Virus record (IMG/VR): IMGVR_UViG_3300000116_000036
Location: 1-48,037 of that record
Origin: a virus
Length of the DNA: 48,037 bases
Strand: one strand, 5' to 3'
A program made the position numbers and the translations under genes. The first letter of the stretch is position 1; every line of letters starts with the position of its first letter. Positions 19,332 through 36,410 of this stretch are shown in pieces. Under the pieces are notes generated by a model, which saw only the letters and a list, made by a program, of their open reading frames with translations, was not told the DNA's origin and ran no database searches.

Positions 19332-20658
19332 GTGCCACCTTGATACTATCTTTTAATAGATGCAAAGTAGTCAGGAGTTCCGAAACTCTATAGGTATGCG
19401 TAACTCCTCCTATAAGATAGATCCCCGAGTAAACTTTGTCAAGTTCTGCTTTCTTTCTCTTAACCTGCATTCTTGGAATCTGAACATTTACACCACCACC
19501 AGCAAACAAATTTAAGTTTCCAGGTACAGTAATCTCCAACTGAATTGCTTCTAATGATTTCTTTCTTAGGTAATTATATGAAGCAGTATCTAAGTAATTA
19601 TTAAGATTGCGGGATCCCGTAGAACTACCATCAGATTTTGTAGAGTCCCATAAGTGTGTAGGAAGTGCTCTATAGTGTACTCTCTTTGGATTGTTAATGA
19701 GTTTCTTGATCTCTGGATTGTTAATGTCAATGGGGAGTTTACCACCTTTCTCCAATTTTGACATACGCTTAAACGTATTTTCAATAGTATAGTATCCTGT
19801 TTGTGCAGTTACTTTTTTATTTTTAGTTGGGAGAACAGATTCGCCAAACGTGCTAGGATCAAGTCCAATAATATATCCAGACCATGTTCCCTGTCTCAGG
19901 TTTCTTATTGAGTTAAATGAATGTGGAAATGATAACTTACTGATTAAGAAATTATTCTTTGATGGGTTGTCTGATAATGCTTTCTGACCATAAACATACG
20001 TTGGTTTTTCCTGATCTCTGGCATCCTCAATCAATTTATCTATTGTTTTGAAATGATACCCTAAAGCATTCTCATAGAAAATATATGCACCTTGAGGATT
20101 ATCTGACGACCCGCCTGATCTAGTTGCTTTGGATGCAATAAAGTTGATAGCATCAAATGGTCTCCAATTAGGAGAAGTAAATCTTAGTTTATTGGCAGAC
20201 TCAGCATCTAACTTAGCACCACCCTTTCCTCCTAAAGTAGTAACCATGCCAAGAATCTTCTTAACATGCGCTGCTGCATCGGTAGGTGCATATGAACCAA
20301 AGACATTGGTGACTTCATTATTAATAAATGCAGGTGACACAAGTTTCAGAACATATGCTTCTTTCTTTTCAGATTTTACTCTAGCAGTAATCTCATAGCA
20401 TTGGAAGACATACGTTATATTATAACCACCAGATTCAAGATCAATTCTCCAATATTCATTACCAATAAGTGTGTTAATAAAGTCGGTTGCATCAAAAATA
20501 CTTATCTCAGCATATACTGTAGGACTACTGATACTTTCAACAATCTTTAAACTGGAAATCAGTTCTACAATGTTACGAGAACCATCCTTTGCGGTTCTAA
20601 TTTGACCATTACTATCTAAAAGAAATGCTGCTAAGGCAGTTTGTCCCGATTTTTGCAT
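19327..20658 (-). CDS. gp27-like baseplate hub protein, 443 aa
   Basis: Starts MQKSGQTALAAFLLDSNGQI. The N-terminal part NIVELISSLKIVESISSPTV, YAEISIFDATDFINTLIG has the pattern of the first hub domain shared by T4 gp27 and VgrG proteins, and its order beside gp5 supports a gp27 role: a trimeric ring joining tail tube and spike. 443 aa against 391 in T4. The C-terminal region NLNLFAGGGVNVQIPRMQV (near residue 390) is also hub-like. Start codon overlaps the upstream stop as TAATG. Assignment rests on position and pattern, since gp27 diverges strongly. Confidence 0.65.
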   Translation of the reverse strand: MQKSGQTALAAFLLDSNGQIRTAKDGSRNIVELISSLKIVESISSPTVYAEISIFDATDFINTLIGNEYWRIDLESGGYNITYVFQCYEITARVKSEKKEAYVLKLVSPAFINNEVTNVFGSYAPTDAAAHVKKILGMVTTLGGKGGAKLDAESANKLRFTSPNWRPFDAINFIASKATRSGGSSDNPQGAYIFYENALGYHFKTIDKLIEDARDQEKPTYVYGQKALSDNPSKNNFLISKLSFPHSFNSIRNLRQGTWSGYIIGLDPSTFGESVLPTKNKKVTAQTGYYTIENTFKRMSKLEKGGKLPIDINNPEIKKLINNPKRVHYRALPTHLWDSTKSDGSSTGSRNLNNYLDTASYNYLRKKSLEAIQLEITVPGNLNLFAGGGVNVQIPRMQVKRKKAELDKVYSGIYLIGGVTHTYRVSELLTTLHLLKDSIKVAP

Positions 20659-23297
20659 TATACTGAAGCTCCAAATAATCCGAATGTAGGCAAGAATTGT
20701 AATATCTCAGGTGTGTTATTAGTAGGTACTATAACTTTAGTACCTCCACCTCCACTACCAGCAGCAGAACTAGCATTTTGAGCAGATTTTCTACTAACAG
20801 CAGAGGCAACTGCTGTTGCTGCTGCCATCTTTTCACCAGTCTTAACCTCTTCTGCATCTTCTGCTTTTAGTTTTGCATCAGCAGTTTCAGTAGTAGTCTG
20901 TAGAACACCATCACTACCAATAGTCTTTCTTGTCTCCATAATAGCATCCTGAAGTGCTTGGAATGCTATATTTTGTTTTGCCTCTGGTGTTTGAGCAATT
21001 TGTTGAGTAGTACCTCCTCCATTATTTGTGGGTCCACCCACACCACTGAGTGCTCCAGAAGCAACATCAGCATTCATTTGAGACATAACGTCTGGGTTAT
21101 CACTAACTAAAGGTGCTCCACCTCTAGCACCATCTAAAGCAGCAGCAACCTGCTCTACACTGTGAGAAGATGCATTACCTCCTCCATACATAGATCTCCC
21201 AGTAGCAGGATCGGGTAGAGATGCCCATTCTCCTGCCAATGCTTTCATAGCACCAGTTCTATCATTATGTTTCTTAGAAATATAATCCCAAGCATAAGGT
21301 TGCTTATGTTTGATAAGACCTATGCCAATTTTATCCTGCATTGTCTTATCAAACTTAGCACTCTTATCAATTCCCATGGTCCCAACAATTGCTTTCATTG
21401 TTCCAGGGATAACCTGATAACGACCAGCAGCAAATACACCATAATCCCCTTCTTGAGGATTAGACTTATTCATCAAAAATGACTGTCTTTCAATCAACTC
21501 ACCGACAGTCATATCAGTCAGTTTTTTCTTGACTACACTACTAGAATCATGTGTACTTCCGACAATACGATTGCCTTTAGTACCTTGATTCATTGAGTTA
21601 TATCCACCTTCACCAGATGCAATGAAATCTAAGAGTCCACCAGCAGCAAATTCTTGTGGTTTTACTAGTGGTGCTTTCGCAAACATTCCACCAACATCAA
21701 AGTTATATACACTATTACTATTATTCATCATACCACCAACATCAAAATTATTCATCATATTATACATGCCATCTAGATTAAATCCTTTACTAGACGCTTC
21801 AGTTATTCTACGATCAGTAAGGTTACCATCATTCTTTGTGGCAGAAGTATTAAATGGTACTACAAATGCTCCACCTTTTGCTTTTTGTGCAACATATTCT
21901 AAACCATGACCAATGAATGCTGTTGATCCACCACCGTCCAGTGATACAGGATAACCTGATTGTGGACCTTGAATCCATCCACCCATTGCTCTTTCGGGCG
22001 GTTTATCTTTTTTCTTCTCTTTATCTTTTGGTGGAATTGACCCAGATACACTAGATGCAATTGCCGTTGCAGGCATTGACTTATGAAACTTTGGTTTATT
22101 TGCATGCTGTGCTTGATCACCAATTACATAAGCACCATTAAACTTAGATTGAACTGCCTGAATAGACTTGGGTAGAATCTTACTATAAGGTTCTTTAGCA
22201 TCTTTATCATATGATGCATATTCAATCATTGCTCCTGCATCCTGTGCAGATTTTACAGTAGCATCATGAACTGGTTTATATCTATCATCCTGATTGGATG
22301 GAGGAACAAATACTGGAGTATATCCTAATTCTTTGATTGCTGCGATTGCTGCCGCAACTCCCTTTGCTCCTTCCTCAGGATCAGCATAATCCTTACTACC
22401 AGCAGTAAGAATAACATGCTGTTTTGTACTTTGCTGACCTTCTGGAACAGTATTTGCACCATTTCCTTGAGTTTCTCCACCATCGTTTACATCAGATTCA
22501 GTAGATCCCGCATTTGCGGACATAGCAGTCACACCTATTAGGGCAGTTGCACCAACAGCAGCAGCAATTGCTCCTCTGCCTTTCAGTGACCTTAGCATAC
22601 CCTTCTTACCTTTCAGAAGATTCTTATAAAGAGTCTTCAATATCCAGATAAAATCTTTAACTAATTTTGCTGGATTCTTTAACCATCTTAGACCTAATAG
22701 TAATGTTCCTAGTGATAAGAAAAATTGACCAAACCCTGTTAATTTTTCCCACCAAGTTGCCTCAGGGTCAAACATTTTACCAAGACCATCCAATATTCCT
22801 CCAACAGTACCCTTGAAGAAATCATATATGAAAGTTGCTACAGTAATAAAACCATCAACAATATCTTCTAGTTTCTTAATATTATTTTCATCCGCCAACC
22901 ACTCTAAAATTCCTCGTACAATGAAAGTCTTAAAGAACCATCCTGCTAGGTTAGCAAGACCTTCAAAGAATCCCATGACTACAGGAGCAACAAAGTCAGT
23001 TAGACCACTTTTTTTCTCTCCTTCTTGATTATTGGCAGTTAGAGGATTAGCATCTGCATTAATTTTTTTAAGAAGATCCTTTTCCATCATGGAATTGACC
23101 TTCATGCTGTCGGAAATATCCTTAAGGATCACACCCATACTATTAAGTACGGAACCGATACCATTATTAGATTTTACGACCTTTGTAGCAATTATATTTG
23201 CAGATACAGTACCTTCAGAGTCGTCTTTACTTACTTGACCCCTAGGACTTAAAAACTTATAAAAGTCTATTTTAGATGTCTTACCAGACTTTTGCAT
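20658..23297 (-). CDS. Tape-measure-like tail protein with muramidase domain, 879 aa
   Basis: The N-terminal third (about 95-190) holds hydrophobic amphipathic helices (FFEGLANLAGWFFKTFIVRG, ILEWLADENNIKKLEDIVDG) that match the neighbouring 998-aa protein, so the two are paralogues. Residues about 555-720 form a lysozyme-like domain: DFIASGEGGYNSMNQG with catalytic Glu candidate E563, and GRYQVIPGTMKAIVGTMG, as in phage muramidases (COG4678 type). It probably lies inside the tail tube or hub and cuts glycan strands during infection. Residues 285-420 include an SGNH-like or NagZ-like segment (VILTAGSKDYADPEEGAKGV). Start overlaps the upstream stop as TAATG. Confidence 0.75.
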   Translation of the reverse strand: MQKSGKTSKIDFYKFLSPRGQVSKDDSEGTVSANIIATKVVKSNNGIGSVLNSMGVILKDISDSMKVNSMMEKDLLKKINADANPLTANNQEGEKKSGLTDFVAPVVMGFFEGLANLAGWFFKTFIVRGILEWLADENNIKKLEDIVDGFITVATFIYDFFKGTVGGILDGLGKMFDPEATWWEKLTGFGQFFLSLGTLLLGLRWLKNPAKLVKDFIWILKTLYKNLLKGKKGMLRSLKGRGAIAAAVGATALIGVTAMSANAGSTESDVNDGGETQGNGANTVPEGQQSTKQHVILTAGSKDYADPEEGAKGVAAAIAAIKELGYTPVFVPPSNQDDRYKPVHDATVKSAQDAGAMIEYASYDKDAKEPYSKILPKSIQAVQSKFNGAYVIGDQAQHANKPKFHKSMPATAIASSVSGSIPPKDKEKKKDKPPERAMGGWIQGPQSGYPVSLDGGGSTAFIGHGLEYVAQKAKGGAFVVPFNTSATKNDGNLTDRRITEASSKGFNLDGMYNMMNNFDVGGMMNNSNSVYNFDVGGMFAKAPLVKPQEFAAGGLLDFIASGEGGYNSMNQGTKGNRIVGSTHDSSSVVKKKLTDMTVGELIERQSFLMNKSNPQEGDYGVFAAGRYQVIPGTMKAIVGTMGIDKSAKFDKTMQDKIGIGLIKHKQPYAWDYISKKHNDRTGAMKALAGEWASLPDPATGRSMYGGGNASSHSVEQVAAALDGARGGAPLVSDNPDVMSQMNADVASGALSGVGGPTNNGGGTTQQIAQTPEAKQNIAFQALQDAIMETRKTIGSDGVLQTTTETADAKLKAEDAEEVKTGEKMAAATAVASAVSRKSAQNASSAAGSGGGGTKVIVPTNNTPEILQFLPTFGLFGASV

Positions 23298-26293
23298 TAC
23301 TTAGCAGGATAAGATGAATTTGGGTCGCGATAGACAACTATAGGTTCCCCACCAGTATTTATGATCTGGGTATTCGTTATAGGGAGGGTAATCGGAACTA
23401 CCGTTTTACCTTTCTTATCTATATCAGTATCTGCTTGATTTAATGAATTTTTAGTTGAAAGAGATGCTACAGCAGGTTGAGCAGATGTTGCAGAACTAAT
23501 AGATCGTGATGCTGGTGACGATGATGTAGGAGCAAGAGTACGTTTTTCGTCAGAGTATATTTGACCACGAACATCTTTAATTGCAGAGTCTAGCATACCA
23601 AAAATGCGACTCATTTTTTGTTCTTGAGTCTCTGCTGGTTCTACTGCTGCTTGATTGTCATTTGGTTGTGTAGTTGTAGTATCACTAGTGTTCCCACCTG
23701 GAGTAACGTTAACACTGGTATCATCTTCTGTTACAGGTTCAGTTTTTACATTAGCATTTGCAGTACCAGAACCACTTAAGTTCTCCCAATGCCATGCTTC
23801 TGTTTTATTAGGAGTATTAGGACTTAGACCCCAACCTGACAGAGGTTTGAATCCAAACTTACTGGCATTTGCCCACAACCACTTATATCCACCATCAAAG
23901 TAGTTGAGGTCAGCAGCAAGACCATACCCATGATTTGATGTTCCTGGACGAGCAGCAGTACCAGGAGGTTTAGTGTTATACATGTGCTGCTGATCAGCAA
24001 TCGTTCTAAAGGTATCATTAATACCGAGAGGATGACCCGCTTTCTTGGCAGAATCTAACATAGATTGAAACTGCTTTGCAACACTCTTATGCAACTTACC
24101 TTTTCCTGCTTGTCCCCAACCTGCATAACCTTTTACTGCTTGCATCTCAGAAGCAGGTACTTCTCCATTCTTATACTTACCTACTGGACCACCTCCAGAA
24201 AATCCATCCCATCCAGCAGCACGATAATTAGACTTTGCAGGATTTGAAACAGGTTTTAGATCTTTTGGCATTACTGGTTCATTTTCTTTCTGCCAGTTAG
24301 CAAGACCACCTCTATTAGTTCCTGTAGATTTAAGACCACCACCCTTTGCAAGTTCTGGTTTTTCTTCCTCACCCTTTTCCAATCCCTCTGGTGTTTGACC
24401 TTCTTGATTGGTAAACATACCAATCAGTCCTTTAAGTGGACCAGCAGGAAGGTTATCTTTTGCAAAGGCATTAACTTGATCAATAAGACCTTTAGCACCA
24501 GGAATTGAACTTATCATAGCATCTTCCATTTGTCTGATGCCAGGAATCAGATCTCTAAACAAAGAGAATACATCAAGTCCTAATGAAACATATGGACCAG
24601 CAGCAAAACCAAATGCTCCAGATAAATCAAACGCAGCAGATAATGCTTCAATACCAGCACCAACTGCATCACCATCAGTTAAGCGATCATATGCAAATAG
24701 TAAGTTAATAAGACCACCAACAATTGGTAGTGCTTTGCCACCAATTTTTTGAATAAGTGGTTTCGGTTCTAATAGAGAAAGTCCCTTCTTCTGAAGGTAC
24801 TCTTCCATCATTATACCTGCGCCAGAAGACATGACCTTGGACATAACCTGTCCTGCCATTCCCCTGATGCCTTTCATCATTGGTTCAAAGAACTTACCCA
24901 AAGGTTCTACGATCTTTGATGTCGCAAAATTCTTAACCCAATTTGATGCACCTTTTAAACCATTATCTGCCCAAGCAACAGCATCTCCTGCCTTACTCTT
25001 AAGATTAGCGCCAAGTGCCTTTGCCCTATTACCATACTTCTTTCCTTTCTCAAGAGAGAATTCCCACGCTTTTTTTGCGTTTTCAGAGAATCTAGCATAG
25101 ATTTCTGCAGGAGTTCCACTCAACCCATATTTTTTACGTGCAACTTTTATTTGTTCTGCAATTACAGCGGCAGGTTTATCAATCAGAATACCTTTGAGAT
25201 TCTTGGCATGATCACCCAAGAAATCTGCAAATTTCATTAGACTGTCTTTAATCCCTTCTGCCGCTGAGGTTCCAACATTCTCAAGAGTATTGAATGTTCT
25301 TCCCAGTAAACCAGATGGTTTATTCTTCCTTGCTTGTTTTACAAGTTTTTCTATTGCCGATTCAGTTAGTTCTTCTCCAGATTTCTGAGCAACACTTCTT
25401 AATTTAGCATACTCTTTCGCTTGCTCAATGGTCTTAAATCCATGCCTCTTCTTAATATTTTCAAGAATTTGTGCTCTGGATCTTACATTATCAGTATTTG
25501 GAGTTGGTTTTGGTTTTGGTTTGGGGTTATCAGCATCAGGTAAATCTGGTTCTTTCTGCATCAAATCAAACAAACCCATTATGTCTTGGATTAGTCCAAA
25601 TGGATTTAGAAGATAACCTAATGCTTTTAATCCTACTATGCCTGTTAAGAGGGTTCCTACCCCCACAATCATATCCCAAGCACCACCTAAGTTACCTTGA
25701 GCAATCTTTTTAGCGCCGCCAAATATTTTGGCAAGACCATCAAATACTGCGCCTACACTAAAAGTAACTAACTTATATACAAAATCTCCAACCGTCTTAA
25801 GAGTGTTGAAGATATTCTCCATCGCCTCAAGGTTTTTCTCATCGGAAAACCATTCAAGTATTGCTCTGGAAATAAAAGTTCTAGCAACCCAGGCAAATAA
25901 ATTGCCGAGTGGTTTCAACATTTTCTCCAACCACCCTAGAGGATTCTTCTGCTTCTTAACTTCGTCCTCTAAATCATCATCTAAATTTTCTTTATTTTCT
26001 TGACTTATTCCACCTTCCGCTTCTACTTCTGCTCTACTATCCCTAGCAAGATCACTAAGTCTTTCTCTCTCAGCAATCTGCTCTCCCAAGAAAGTTGATC
26101 TTTCGGATATAGTATTCCTAATGTCCTCCAGGACACTACCCATACCCTCTAAGGTCTTACCAATTTGATTGTAAGATTTAGTTACTGTATATACTGATTT
26201 TTTAACCGAATCGGCAACCTTCAACCCACCAGACTCTTCACTAGTGATTGAAGTTGGGATTAACTTATGTGGTTTAATCTTAGATGATACCAT
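23297..26293 (-). CDS. Tape-measure-like tail protein with M15 peptidase domain, 998 aa
   Basis: The probable tape measure, being directly downstream of the frameshifting gp26 chaperone. N-terminal coiled region with QIGKTLEGMGSVLEDIRNTI, then paralogous helices (about 125-200: NLFAWVARTFISRAILEWFS, GAVFDGLAKIFGG). The C-terminal region (about 715-850) is an M15 / VanY-type zinc peptidase: SNHGYGLAAD supplies H788 and D795, and EAWHWEN supplies H835. This should cleave peptide cross-links of peptidoglycan. It is followed by a Thr/Asn/Pro-rich linker and a C-terminal tail. Starts five bases after the end of the frameshift extension. Confidence 0.78.
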   Translation of the reverse strand: MVSSKIKPHKLIPTSITSEESGGLKVADSVKKSVYTVTKSYNQIGKTLEGMGSVLEDIRNTISERSTFLGEQIAERERLSDLARDSRAEVEAEGGISQENKENLDDDLEDEVKKQKNPLGWLEKMLKPLGNLFAWVARTFISRAILEWFSDEKNLEAMENIFNTLKTVGDFVYKLVTFSVGAVFDGLAKIFGGAKKIAQGNLGGAWDMIVGVGTLLTGIVGLKALGYLLNPFGLIQDIMGLFDLMQKEPDLPDADNPKPKPKPTPNTDNVRSRAQILENIKKRHGFKTIEQAKEYAKLRSVAQKSGEELTESAIEKLVKQARKNKPSGLLGRTFNTLENVGTSAAEGIKDSLMKFADFLGDHAKNLKGILIDKPAAVIAEQIKVARKKYGLSGTPAEIYARFSENAKKAWEFSLEKGKKYGNRAKALGANLKSKAGDAVAWADNGLKGASNWVKNFATSKIVEPLGKFFEPMMKGIRGMAGQVMSKVMSSGAGIMMEEYLQKKGLSLLEPKPLIQKIGGKALPIVGGLINLLFAYDRLTDGDAVGAGIEALSAAFDLSGAFGFAAGPYVSLGLDVFSLFRDLIPGIRQMEDAMISSIPGAKGLIDQVNAFAKDNLPAGPLKGLIGMFTNQEGQTPEGLEKGEEEKPELAKGGGLKSTGTNRGGLANWQKENEPVMPKDLKPVSNPAKSNYRAAGWDGFSGGGPVGKYKNGEVPASEMQAVKGYAGWGQAGKGKLHKSVAKQFQSMLDSAKKAGHPLGINDTFRTIADQQHMYNTKPPGTAARPGTSNHGYGLAADLNYFDGGYKWLWANASKFGFKPLSGWGLSPNTPNKTEAWHWENLSGSGTANANVKTEPVTEDDTSVNVTPGGNTSDTTTTQPNDNQAAVEPAETQEQKMSRIFGMLDSAIKDVRGQIYSDEKRTLAPTSSSPASRSISSATSAQPAVASLSTKNSLNQADTDIDKKGKTVVPITLPITNTQIINTGGEPIVVYRDPNSSYPAK

Positions 26294-26298
26294 TTCGG

Positions 26299-26484
26299 TT
26301 ATGAGTTCCTTTCTTTGTACCGTTTCTCCTCTTCCTTCAAGTAATTGAGAAGGAGATTAACATAAACCTCCTTCTCCCAAGGCATAATGTTATCTAGATA
26401 TTCAGGATTCCACTTATGATGGTGGATCAATGCAAAGTTGGTTTCATAATAATTTTGTAGACTGGTGTGGAGAAGGACTAACCG
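26299..26484 (-). CDS. -1 frameshift extension of gp26 (61 codons), gp51/T-like
   Basis: An open frame in -1 relative to gp26 with no own start codon near its beginning. It is entered at the slippery site 26484-26490 and encodes 61 residues beginning RLVLLHTSLQNYY, then NFALIHHHKWNPEYLDNIMP, WEKEVYVNLLLNYLKEEEKR, ending before the tape-measure start. The pattern of His-rich turn, MPWEKEVY and a long acidic/basic helix resembles the second frame of tail-assembly chaperones (lambda GT type). The fused product would be about 297 aa. An internal ATG (MPWEKEV...) could give a 28-aa product instead, which seems less likely. Confidence 0.75.
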   Translation of the reverse strand, partial: RLVLLHTSLQNYYETNFALIHHHKWNPEYLDNIMPWEKEVYVNLLLNYLKEEEKRYKERNS

Positions 26485-27191
26485 AAAAAACTTGCTAAAC
26501 CCTCAAGTTCCAAAGTTTGTTTCTTCTTAGTCTTAGGATTAGTAAATTTAATCTCGTGTGCCAATTTTGGCATTGTTTCAAAAAACTTTTGAATTTCTTG
26601 AAACTGTGTAGTGTTCAATTGATCAAGGAATTCAGTTAACTCCTCTTTTGAACTTTCCTGTGCTTCATATACATCCTCACCTTCAACAATTTGAACAATA
26701 CAATCAACTGTAAGTTCAAACAAACTTTCTACAGTACTATTAGTTTCAAAGTTATTTTTAACAAACATATCCATACTGGGATATTTCATAACCATAGAAA
26801 TTTTATTATCTAGTTTCAGTACGTTTGTATGATCATCGTTAAATTTTACATTAATATCATCAAGATCAACAGTTACCTTCACTTTAGTCTCACCATCGTC
26901 AGGTGATGTTACCATAATATCAACGGTTTCACCTACAGACTTGGCACGAATATTCAAGAAGATATATTCAAAATCAAACGTAGCAAGGTTCTTAATATCA
27001 GTCTGAGATAAGTTAGTGCAGTTAAGAAGCAACGTTTGAATAGTATCAACCATCTGCCCCTGATCTTCAGTTTCCATTGCTAGCAACAGCAATTTCTCTT
27101 CTTTCACCAGGAATGGACGATATTTAATTCTTCTCTCATCAGAAGGCAGTTTCAATTCATAGCGAGGAACATTTAGTTTAGGTAATGCCAT
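26478..27191 (-). CDS. 26: gp26-like baseplate hub / tail assembly chaperone
   Basis: 237 aa, starting MALPKLNVPRYELKLPSDER, the usual start of T4 gp26 homologues (T4 gp26 is 208 aa). The N-terminal half, MALPKL..YELxLPSxxxxIxxRPFLVKEEKxLLLA, is highly characteristic, followed by IKNLATFDFEYIFLNIRAKS. The gene ends GLASFFG, where the bases T TTT TTC allow a -1 shift into a 61-codon extension. Its place just before the tape-measure-like gene matches the G/GT chaperone position in lambda. In T4, gp26 is a minor hub protein; a chaperone role is inferred from the frameshift. Confidence 0.85.
   Translation of the reverse strand: MALPKLNVPRYELKLPSDERRIKYRPFLVKEEKLLLLAMETEDQGQMVDTIQTLLLNCTNLSQTDIKNLATFDFEYIFLNIRAKSVGETVDIMVTSPDDGETKVKVTVDLDDINVKFNDDHTNVLKLDNKISMVMKYPSMDMFVKNNFETNSTVESLFELTVDCIVQIVEGEDVYEAQESSKEELTEFLDQLNTTQFQEIQKFFETMPKLAHEIKFTNPKTKKKQTLELEGLASFFG
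26484..26490 (-). promoter_or_regulatory. Programmed -1 ribosomal frameshift slippery site
   Basis: Heptamer T TTT TTC read in the gp26 frame as AGT TTT TTC GGT TAG on the minus strand: two phenylalanine tRNAs can re-pair perfectly after slipping back. The gp26 stop follows one codon later, and the new frame stays open for 61 codons, ending just before the tape-measure gene. Confidence 0.75.
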
Positions 27192-34362: not shown

Positions 34363-35020
34363 AGAATTCTTCTTGGTAAGATTTAAGTAATTGTAAATAG
34401 TCATTAAGATTGTACTTCTGAAATACTTGAATAGATCCTTCTTCAGTGGCGATAAGTGTGACAATTTTCTTTACCTTAATACCCGAACGTTCATAGAACA
34501 TAGCGGCGTAAGCAGACTCTTGTACGAAATAGTTCTCAATGTAAGACTCCTTCTTCTCTTTAGTTGAGGTTTTAAAGTCAATTACTGCTAATTCGTTATC
34601 AAATTCAGCAATGCAATCAACGCGACCAGCGAGAGCGAGAACATGACTGTAAAGAGGGGTTTCAAGAGCGTGAATGTTATCCACCCGAGCAAGAGTCGTA
34701 CGAGCCATTTTGTACATGGTGAGTGCAAGCGGGTCTCGTTCATAAGTCTGCTCGTTTAGTGTGCCACGGATGTGGTCCTCTAGTATAGCATGAAAACAGT
34801 TTCCTCGCTTGGAAGCTCTGTTAGAAATACGATTTGCTTCAGCTTCACCAACTCTTCGTCTCCAAGCAGCAATAGATTTGCGAGAGCGAATGCCAGTGAC
34901 AGTTGTTACTGATGGATATGGTTTATCTACATTAGGAAATTTATAAAAACGTTTTCCGTTTTCCTGAACTACTGTAGGTTCTTCCAGACTATCATATGTA
35001 ACGTCAACAAAATTAAACAT
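34346..35020 (-). CDS. RecB/PD-(D/E)xK family exonuclease
   Basis: 224 aa. A RecB-like nuclease core is visible: H77 in NCFHAILEDH, D135 in LAGRVDCIAEF, D148 and K150 in ELAVIDFKTS, followed by YIENYFVQESAYAAMFYE (QxxxYA motif, near 160-177). These are the residues of the PDDEXK_1/Cas4-RecB family. Likely an exonuclease in recombination or host-DNA breakdown. The ATG overlaps the oxygenase stop as TGATG; the 3' end overlaps the start of gp33. Confidence 0.8.
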   Translation of the reverse strand: MFNFVDVTYDSLEEPTVVQENGKRFYKFPNVDKPYPSVTTVTGIRSRKSIAAWRRRVGEAEANRISNRASKRGNCFHAILEDHIRGTLNEQTYERDPLALTMYKMARTTLARVDNIHALETPLYSHVLALAGRVDCIAEFDNELAVIDFKTSTKEKKESYIENYFVQESAYAAMFYERSGIKVKKIVTLIATEEGSIQVFQKYNLNDYLQLLKSYQEEFYATQD

Positions 35021-35631
35021 CAGTATTGATATCCCATAATATTTAAATTGAACGCAATTGAGATGCGATCTTCACGAGAATAATTTGGATATACTCCATG
35101 ATATATTTCAGATGGAAAGATAAACATATCTCCTTCTCTAGGCATAACCTCAAATAGAGGACCATACTCAGGAAGTTTGCAATGCTCTTCAATGATCGGA
35201 TTATGTGGTCCAGGTCTGATAAAATAGAGAGCACCAGACTTAGGAGGTACTTTAACATAATAGATACCACTAAAGTGTGTACCTCCATGATTATGTGGTT
35301 TATTGTAGTGGCCGCGGCCATTAACATTCATCCATAATCCAGCACCTTGAATATTCCATTCCCCTACTTTAGCATTGGAGTCCTTCAAATGTTCGGTCAA
35401 AAGACTTTTTGCAATCATAAACAAAGGTTGCCATGCAAGTCCCTTGATAGCAGGAGAAGATTGATATCCACCTACATTACTAAACTCCATTGATTTACTA
35501 AACTCTTCCTGAGTTTTATAAACCAACTCCTCAGTTACAAGATCAGTTCCAACATTTTTATATGTTATAGGAGTTGGAAAAAGATTGTGTGTTTTTTGTT
35601 CTAAATTAGAACTTTCAGTATAAATGGACAT
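35020..35631 (-). CDS. 2OG-Fe(II) oxygenase family protein, 203 aa
   Basis: Starts MSIYTESSNLEQKTHNLFPT. Iron region NKPHNHGGTHFSGIYYV (HxH type), a GDMFIFPSEIYHGVYPN segment with the distal His, and RISIAFN with the Arg; KSGALYFIRPGPH lies between. It is a clear PF13759-type (SGvyYv ... FPS ... H ... RiSiaFN) member. Starts by ATGA overlap with phoH; a TTG at 35634 is an alternative only on paper. Substrate unknown. Confidence 0.82.
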   Translation of the reverse strand: MSIYTESSNLEQKTHNLFPTPITYKNVGTDLVTEELVYKTQEEFSKSMEFSNVGGYQSSPAIKGLAWQPLFMIAKSLLTEHLKDSNAKVGEWNIQGAGLWMNVNGRGHYNKPHNHGGTHFSGIYYVKVPPKSGALYFIRPGPHNPIIEEHCKLPEYGPLFEVMPREGDMFIFPSEIYHGVYPNYSREDRISIAFNLNIMGYQY

Positions 35632-36410
35632 CAATAACCAAGTTGTAATTTGTTCATTAGGTACGAGCGAACTAATCCAGATCTAACAATATCATCAACA
35701 CCAAACTCAGTAATATCAAACTCTGGCATTTGTTGAAGAATACGCATGAAATCTAGGATACCATTACGCTCATTCTCTTTAACCAAATCTGTCTGAGTAA
35801 CATCACCACAGAACATAATTTTACAATTATCTCCTACACGAGTGATCATACTATCAAGTTCATGAAAATTCAAGTTTGAAAATTCATCAACAATTACAAT
35901 ACAGTCATCCATAGTAACACCACGAATGAATGAAGTTGACCAGAAAGAAATAGTTTCTTGAGATTTAAGATTATCATACAACATATCAAAGCTGTTGTCA
36001 TCTGGCATCTTAAACATATACTTTACCATGTTCTTATATGGAACCTGGTAGAGCATAGACTTATCTTCATGAGTTCCAGGCAAGAATCCAATCTCCCTGG
36101 TAGGTACAAGAGATCTAACAATATAGATCTTCTCATAAGGAGAATCCTCATCAAGGACTTCCTTAAGTGCATTATATAGTACGATAAAAGTTTTACCAGT
36201 ACCTGCACACCCATGAAGTACACAATTTTTACCTTCGGCATATGAAGCAAATACCGATTCCTGATTATCAGTCATCGGTTCAATATTACGAAGGTATCCC
36301 CCGTCAATTGGTTTTTTACGCTTCATCTGTTTTTTAGACATACCTGAAGATGACTCGTTAAAGAGATCGCCATATTTTTGGGATCTAGATTTAGATCTTG
36401 CTCTAGCCAT
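35631..36410 (-). CDS. phoH: PhoH-like ATPase
   Basis: 259 aa. Walker A GCAGTGKT (67-74), IYIVRSLVPTREIGFLPGT (about 95-113), Walker B IVIVDE (171-176) and KIMFCGDVTQTDL (sensor-like) define PhoH. The family joins ATPase and, in related proteins, RNA-helicase or nuclease-associated activity. It is common in marine phages, often linked with phosphate stress but not shown to be regulated by it here. Basic N-terminus (MARARSKSRSQKYG). Start overlaps the upstream stop as TAATG. Confidence 0.9.
   Translation of the reverse strand: MARARSKSRSQKYGDLFNESSSGMSKKQMKRKKPIDGGYLRNIEPMTDNQESVFASYAEGKNCVLHGCAGTGKTFIVLYNALKEVLDEDSPYEKIYIVRSLVPTREIGFLPGTHEDKSMLYQVPYKNMVKYMFKMPDDNSFDMLYDNLKSQETISFWSTSFIRGVTMDDCIVIVDEFSNLNFHELDSMITRVGDNCKIMFCGDVTQTDLVKENERNGILDFMRILQQMPEFDITEFGVDDIVRSGLVRSYLMNKLQLGY

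Follow-up and report, generated by a model that had tools for sequence, protein, structure and literature searches.

A T TTT TTC heptamer very probably directs a -1 frameshift in the tail assembly chaperone locus of Kyanoviridae-like T4-related cyanophages

The 3' end of gp26 in a 48-kb window (the whole stretch of DNA analyzed here, 48,037 nucleotides), which is a fragment of a T4-like cyanophage genome, raises the question of whether one gene encodes two tail assembly chaperones. In phage lambda, G and GT are a short protein and its -1 frameshift fusion, and G-T frameshifting is widely conserved, T4 being excepted (NAR 2016 review, PMC5009743). The gp26 protein of the window has 237 aa (calculated 27.4 kDa) and its nearest annotated relative is found in Synechococcus phage ACG-2014d (89% identity). 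As a preliminary description of this DNA had reported, the gene ends AGT TTT TTC GGT TAG, and T TTT TTC is indeed a canonical two-tRNA -1 site. Reading across it in the -1 frame gives FF-RLVLLHTSLQNYY...KERNS, that is, 61 codons after FF followed by a TAA stop (26301-26299), which is separated by five bases (CCGAA) from the next ATG (26293); both the length of the open frame and the five-base spacing described earlier are confirmed by the coordinates. The extension had also been said to have no start codon before residue 34, which holds for ATG, whereas a TTG is present earlier, at residue 19 (26430). The predicted fusion gp26-gp51 has 297 aa (calculated 35.0 kDa), with QTLELEGLASFFR and LVLLHTSLQNYYETNFALIHHHK as its junction tryptic peptides. 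A canonical -1 site close to the end of the short form and a -1 frame continuing as coding sequence are both present, as in lambda G/GT.

Table 1 Features of the gp26-gp51 locus and the adjacent downstream gene in the window.
Feature	Position	Strand	Basis
gp26, predicted short tail assembly chaperone (TAC-N, lambda G-like)	26478..27191	-	PF12322 and phrog_150 matches
Slippery heptamer T TTT TTC	26484..26490	-	0 frame AGT TTT TTC GGT TAG
gp26 0-frame stop TAG	26478..26480	-	Sequence
-1 frame extension (gp51 C-terminal part, TAC-C, lambda T-like)	26299..26484	-	phrog_634; pN/pS 0.30
Predicted frameshift fusion gp26-gp51 (TAC-NC, GT-like)	26299..27191	-	Conceptual translation
SD-like GAGG, candidate stimulator	26501..26504	-	10 nt upstream of heptamer; codon bias
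Downstream gene, 998 aa, VanY peptidase domain, tape-measure candidate by position only	23297..26293	-	Domain and PHROGs matches

Comparison with relatives revealed strict conservation of the site. T TTT TTC NNN stop is found at the identical place in all 81 closely compared sequences, namely 80 IMG/VR relatives and the window. A wider set that included more distant groups and annotated phages comprised 215 loci with a readable gp26 stop, of which 23 are Ackermannviridae-like and were counted apart, the other 192 making up the non-Ackermann set. All of these 192 loci, a count that includes near-duplicates, carry an in-frame TTTTTTN close to the gp26 stop (145 TTTTTTC, 42 TTTTTTT and 5 TTTTTTA), and each of the 186 that are not truncated by the contig boundary has a -1 frame of 57-71 codons. 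Kyano-like loci in which the heptamer sits at -10 amount to 123 unique sequences and 39 below 75% identity; the site is kept throughout, the 39 representatives having a mean pairwise identity of 47%. In 30 loci, the gp26 stop lies seven codons later and the position of the heptamer relative to the extension is unchanged. The heptamer and the -1 frame, whose comparison across related cyanophages had been proposed as a check, are therefore conserved in every non-Ackermann relative examined. A scan of viral contigs with the Vibrio D525 protein gave no matches.

The extension itself is under purifying selection, and in this frame only. Across 38 representatives, the -1 frame has a pN/pS of 0.30 and the other two frames have values of 1.20 and 1.69; between the window and a close relative (L001) pS is 0.79 and pN 0.055. 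A substitution pattern typical of non-coding sequence, which had been named beforehand as evidence against a fusion, is thus not what the extension exhibits. AlphaFold models are confident for gp26 (pLDDT 87) and helical for the extension (pLDDT 80). Conservation of the site together with coding selection on the extension strongly supports the programmed -1 frameshift suggested earlier, and we consider it very probable that T TTT TTC acts in this way in the chaperone locus of Kyanoviridae-like T4-related cyanophages, giving gp26 and a gp26-gp51 fusion.

Most ribosomes would terminate at the gp26 stop and yield the short chaperone, and a minority would slip by -1 on T TTT TTC and continue into the fusion, which carries the conserved gp51 helical domain at its C-terminus. 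Slippage is probably aided by the SD-like GAGG. At this element, Glu is encoded by GAG in 23 cases and by GAA in 7 among 39 divergent representatives, compared with 232 GAG and 627 GAA elsewhere (Fisher p about 4e-8 for the difference). This preference for GAG makes an SD-like stimulator likely, as in Escherichia coli dnaX, where a similar element precedes the slippery site by about 10 nt; unlike the phage locus, dnaX is a cellular gene with an A AAA AAG site and a downstream stem-loop. No stable downstream RNA structure was detected in the window (z = +1.6), and a conserved stem-loop or pseudoknot as stimulator was rejected, RNAalifold giving none over 38 representatives. Based on T4 homology and the lambda G/GT analogy, the short and long forms would coat the tape measure and bring in the subunits of the tail tube.

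Other explanations for this arrangement should be weighed against the same data. If gp51 were a separate gene, relying on an independent start or on stop-start coupling, the heptamer would merely represent two Phe codons. Annotation of gp51 as its own CDS in P-SSM2, S-PM2 and S-RIM8, a -1 stretch whose first ATG is codon 6 in 55 of the 123 unique Kyano-like loci and TAATG overlaps in ValKK3 and D525 are all in line with such a gene. However, 30 distinct extensions, that of the window included, contain no ATG, GTG or TTG ahead of a conserved N18 and still conserve H8 (25/30), L11 (30/30) and NF18-19 (29/30). Conservation of these residues is to be expected only where they are translated from upstream, in this frame via gp26, and the start-less conserved extensions argue strongly against a separately started gp51. 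Further, the heptamer is invariant whereas Phe-Phe pairs elsewhere in gp26 are encoded otherwise, TTT TTC being used in just 2 of 128, and ACG-2014d (L084, NC_026923.1), the nearest reference relative, lacks an annotated gp51 although its -1 extension is intact. Taken as a whole, a separate gp51 gene is quite improbable.

The frame could also be changed by RNA polymerase slipping on the T run instead of the ribosome. Every site found is T6 or longer, so comparison alone cannot separate transcript from ribosomal slippage. On the other hand, the constant reading phase of T TTT TTN fits a ribosomal mechanism, as does the SD-like GAGG, given its codon bias, and six T is a short run for bacterial transcript slippage, which makes a transcriptional origin very improbable. 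A -1 frame that is open by chance, or through a sequencing error, has a practically negligible probability and is refuted by the conservation in 192 of 192 loci and by coding selection confined to the -1 frame; a chance heptamer is ruled out by the same conservation. Programmed ribosomal frameshifting on T TTT TTC is the preferred explanation.

Family assignments relate the locus to a pair of T4 genes. The gp26 protein matches PF12322 (T4_baseplate, 5.9e-70) and phrog_150 (baseplate hub, 6.1e-81), and the extension matches phrog_634, the 'baseplate hub assembly catalyst' gp51 (6.8e-26). T4 gp26 consists of the PF12322 domain alone and T4 gp51 of a complete PF12322 domain (residues 1-201, 3.9e-52) plus the phrog_634 segment, and it follows that cyanophages would reach by frameshifting the same short and long pair for which T4 uses two genes. 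Both systems share a PF12322 short form and a long form made up of this domain and a C-terminal extension; they differ in that the T4 forms originate from two genes, whereas in the cyanophages frameshifting within a single gene would supply both. In T4, Aeromonas phage 31 and KARL-1, gp26 and gp51 are separate genes on opposite strands, in RB43 they are adjacent on one strand, and the Straboviridae members ValKK3 and Ci1 retain T TTT TTC. A tree placed T4-type gp26 and gp51 domains on one side and frameshift-type proteins on the opposite side (support 92/93, not starred), consistent with a single duplication behind the T4-type pair. Because T4 gp51 contains a complete gp26-family domain plus an extension, the unification of T4 gp26/gp51 with lambda G/GT put forward in the preliminary description holds by architecture; it is correct but already published. 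The likeness to lambda is likewise one of architecture, a short form plus a predicted -1 fusion, and the two differ in the slip site, which is a T run in the cyanophages and not in lambda. Separately, T4 gp26 (L086:3803-4429) also weakly matches the gp28 family phrog_1140 (9e-4), a hint that gp28 may also be related.

No solved structure of the gp26 family was found by sequence, and Foldseek gave no significant match for gp26 in the PDB. The PDB matches with the highest probability (0.47 and 0.51) are two chains of the HK97 chaperone 2ob9; they are weak (E 1.0 and 1.9, TM-scores about 0.2/0.4), and the resemblance of the modeled gp26 fold to this HK97 tail assembly chaperone is only a hint. 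In BFVD, the best named matches are gp26-type baseplate hub proteins.

The Ackermannviridae-like loci represent an exception. Their gp26 genes (L093-L095, L097, L099-L117) lack TTTTTTN and instead have TTY after ATT, GTT or CTT. In some of these loci gp26 overlaps the gp51 segment through TAATG, and others have no ATG, yet conserve the same upstream residues. The combination that had been expected to speak against frameshifting, a broken heptamer with an ATG-started downstream reading frame, does therefore exist, confined to these distant phages; the non-Ackermann loci agree with frameshifting. A possible, though rather doubtful, overall scenario would be that a dnaX-like, SD-stimulated U UUU UUC frameshift without downstream structure sets the chaperone ratio in Kyanoviridae, that the T4 lineage swapped it for a gene duplication once, and that the heptamer disappeared in Ackermannviridae-like phages, which would rely on a weaker slip of a single tRNA or on overlapping stop and start codons.

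T4-like tail assembly chaperones were identified by Vladimirov, Gautam and Davidson (Virology 2022), as cited in PMC10274946 and PMC12846349. According to the passages citing that work, T4-like phages that have, in place of a frameshift, a short gene and a long fused one are known (PRFect, PMC10274946), as are poly-T slippery sites in TAC-N genes of T4-like phages (PMC12846349). The TAC locus of Vandenendeviridae and Andersonviridae (PMC12846349) was approached by similar reasoning and is alike in having a GTTTTT motif that ends TAC-N and an uninterrupted -1 frame; it belongs to other phage families, and the comparison concerns motif and layout. With the main principle published in 2022, the cyanophage site is well supported and not a discovery. 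Scale, the SD-like GAGG with its codon bias, the missing annotation and the Ackermannviridae-like exception are what is added here. The abstract of the 2022 study is said to describe frameshifting as conserved in several T4-like groups.

With respect to annotation, none of six Kyanoviridae records examined marks a joined or fusion CDS. What is annotated as 'gp51' in cyanophages most likely represents the tail end of a frameshift product instead of a small free-standing protein, and its re-annotation would affect hundreds of cyanophage genomes. Frameshifting at gp26 would also account for the two related T4 genes 26 and 51 and offer a clear example in which gene duplication took the place of recoding.

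The gene following the extension had been called tape-measure-like, which is plausible from its position only. No match to PF25671 (T4_Tape_measure, T4 gp29) was obtained for the 998-aa protein, and it was rejected as a T4 gp29 homologue on this basis, though the genome-search control was uninformative. Similarity between the N-terminal regions of two large minus-strand genes, 20658-23297 and 23297-26293 (phmmer 3.8e-20, covering residues 16-241 of the former), makes them look like paralogues; PHROGs labels both 'endolysin', and either could be the tape measure.

Within ORFs of at least 150 aa, the window contains 43 in-frame X XXY YYZ sites, three of which open a -1 frame that passes the stop of the gene. 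Of these, G GGT TTA and T TTT TTC belong to gp26 and the third is beside an overlapping gene. G GGT TTA (26496-26502, minus strand) precedes T TTT TTC by 12 nt in the same phase; it was discarded as an alternative slip site, being carried by a minority of loci and not conserved. A T TTA AAT within 35020-35634 (minus strand), 27 nt before the stop of the gene, opens a long -1 frame that probably just overlaps the next gene.
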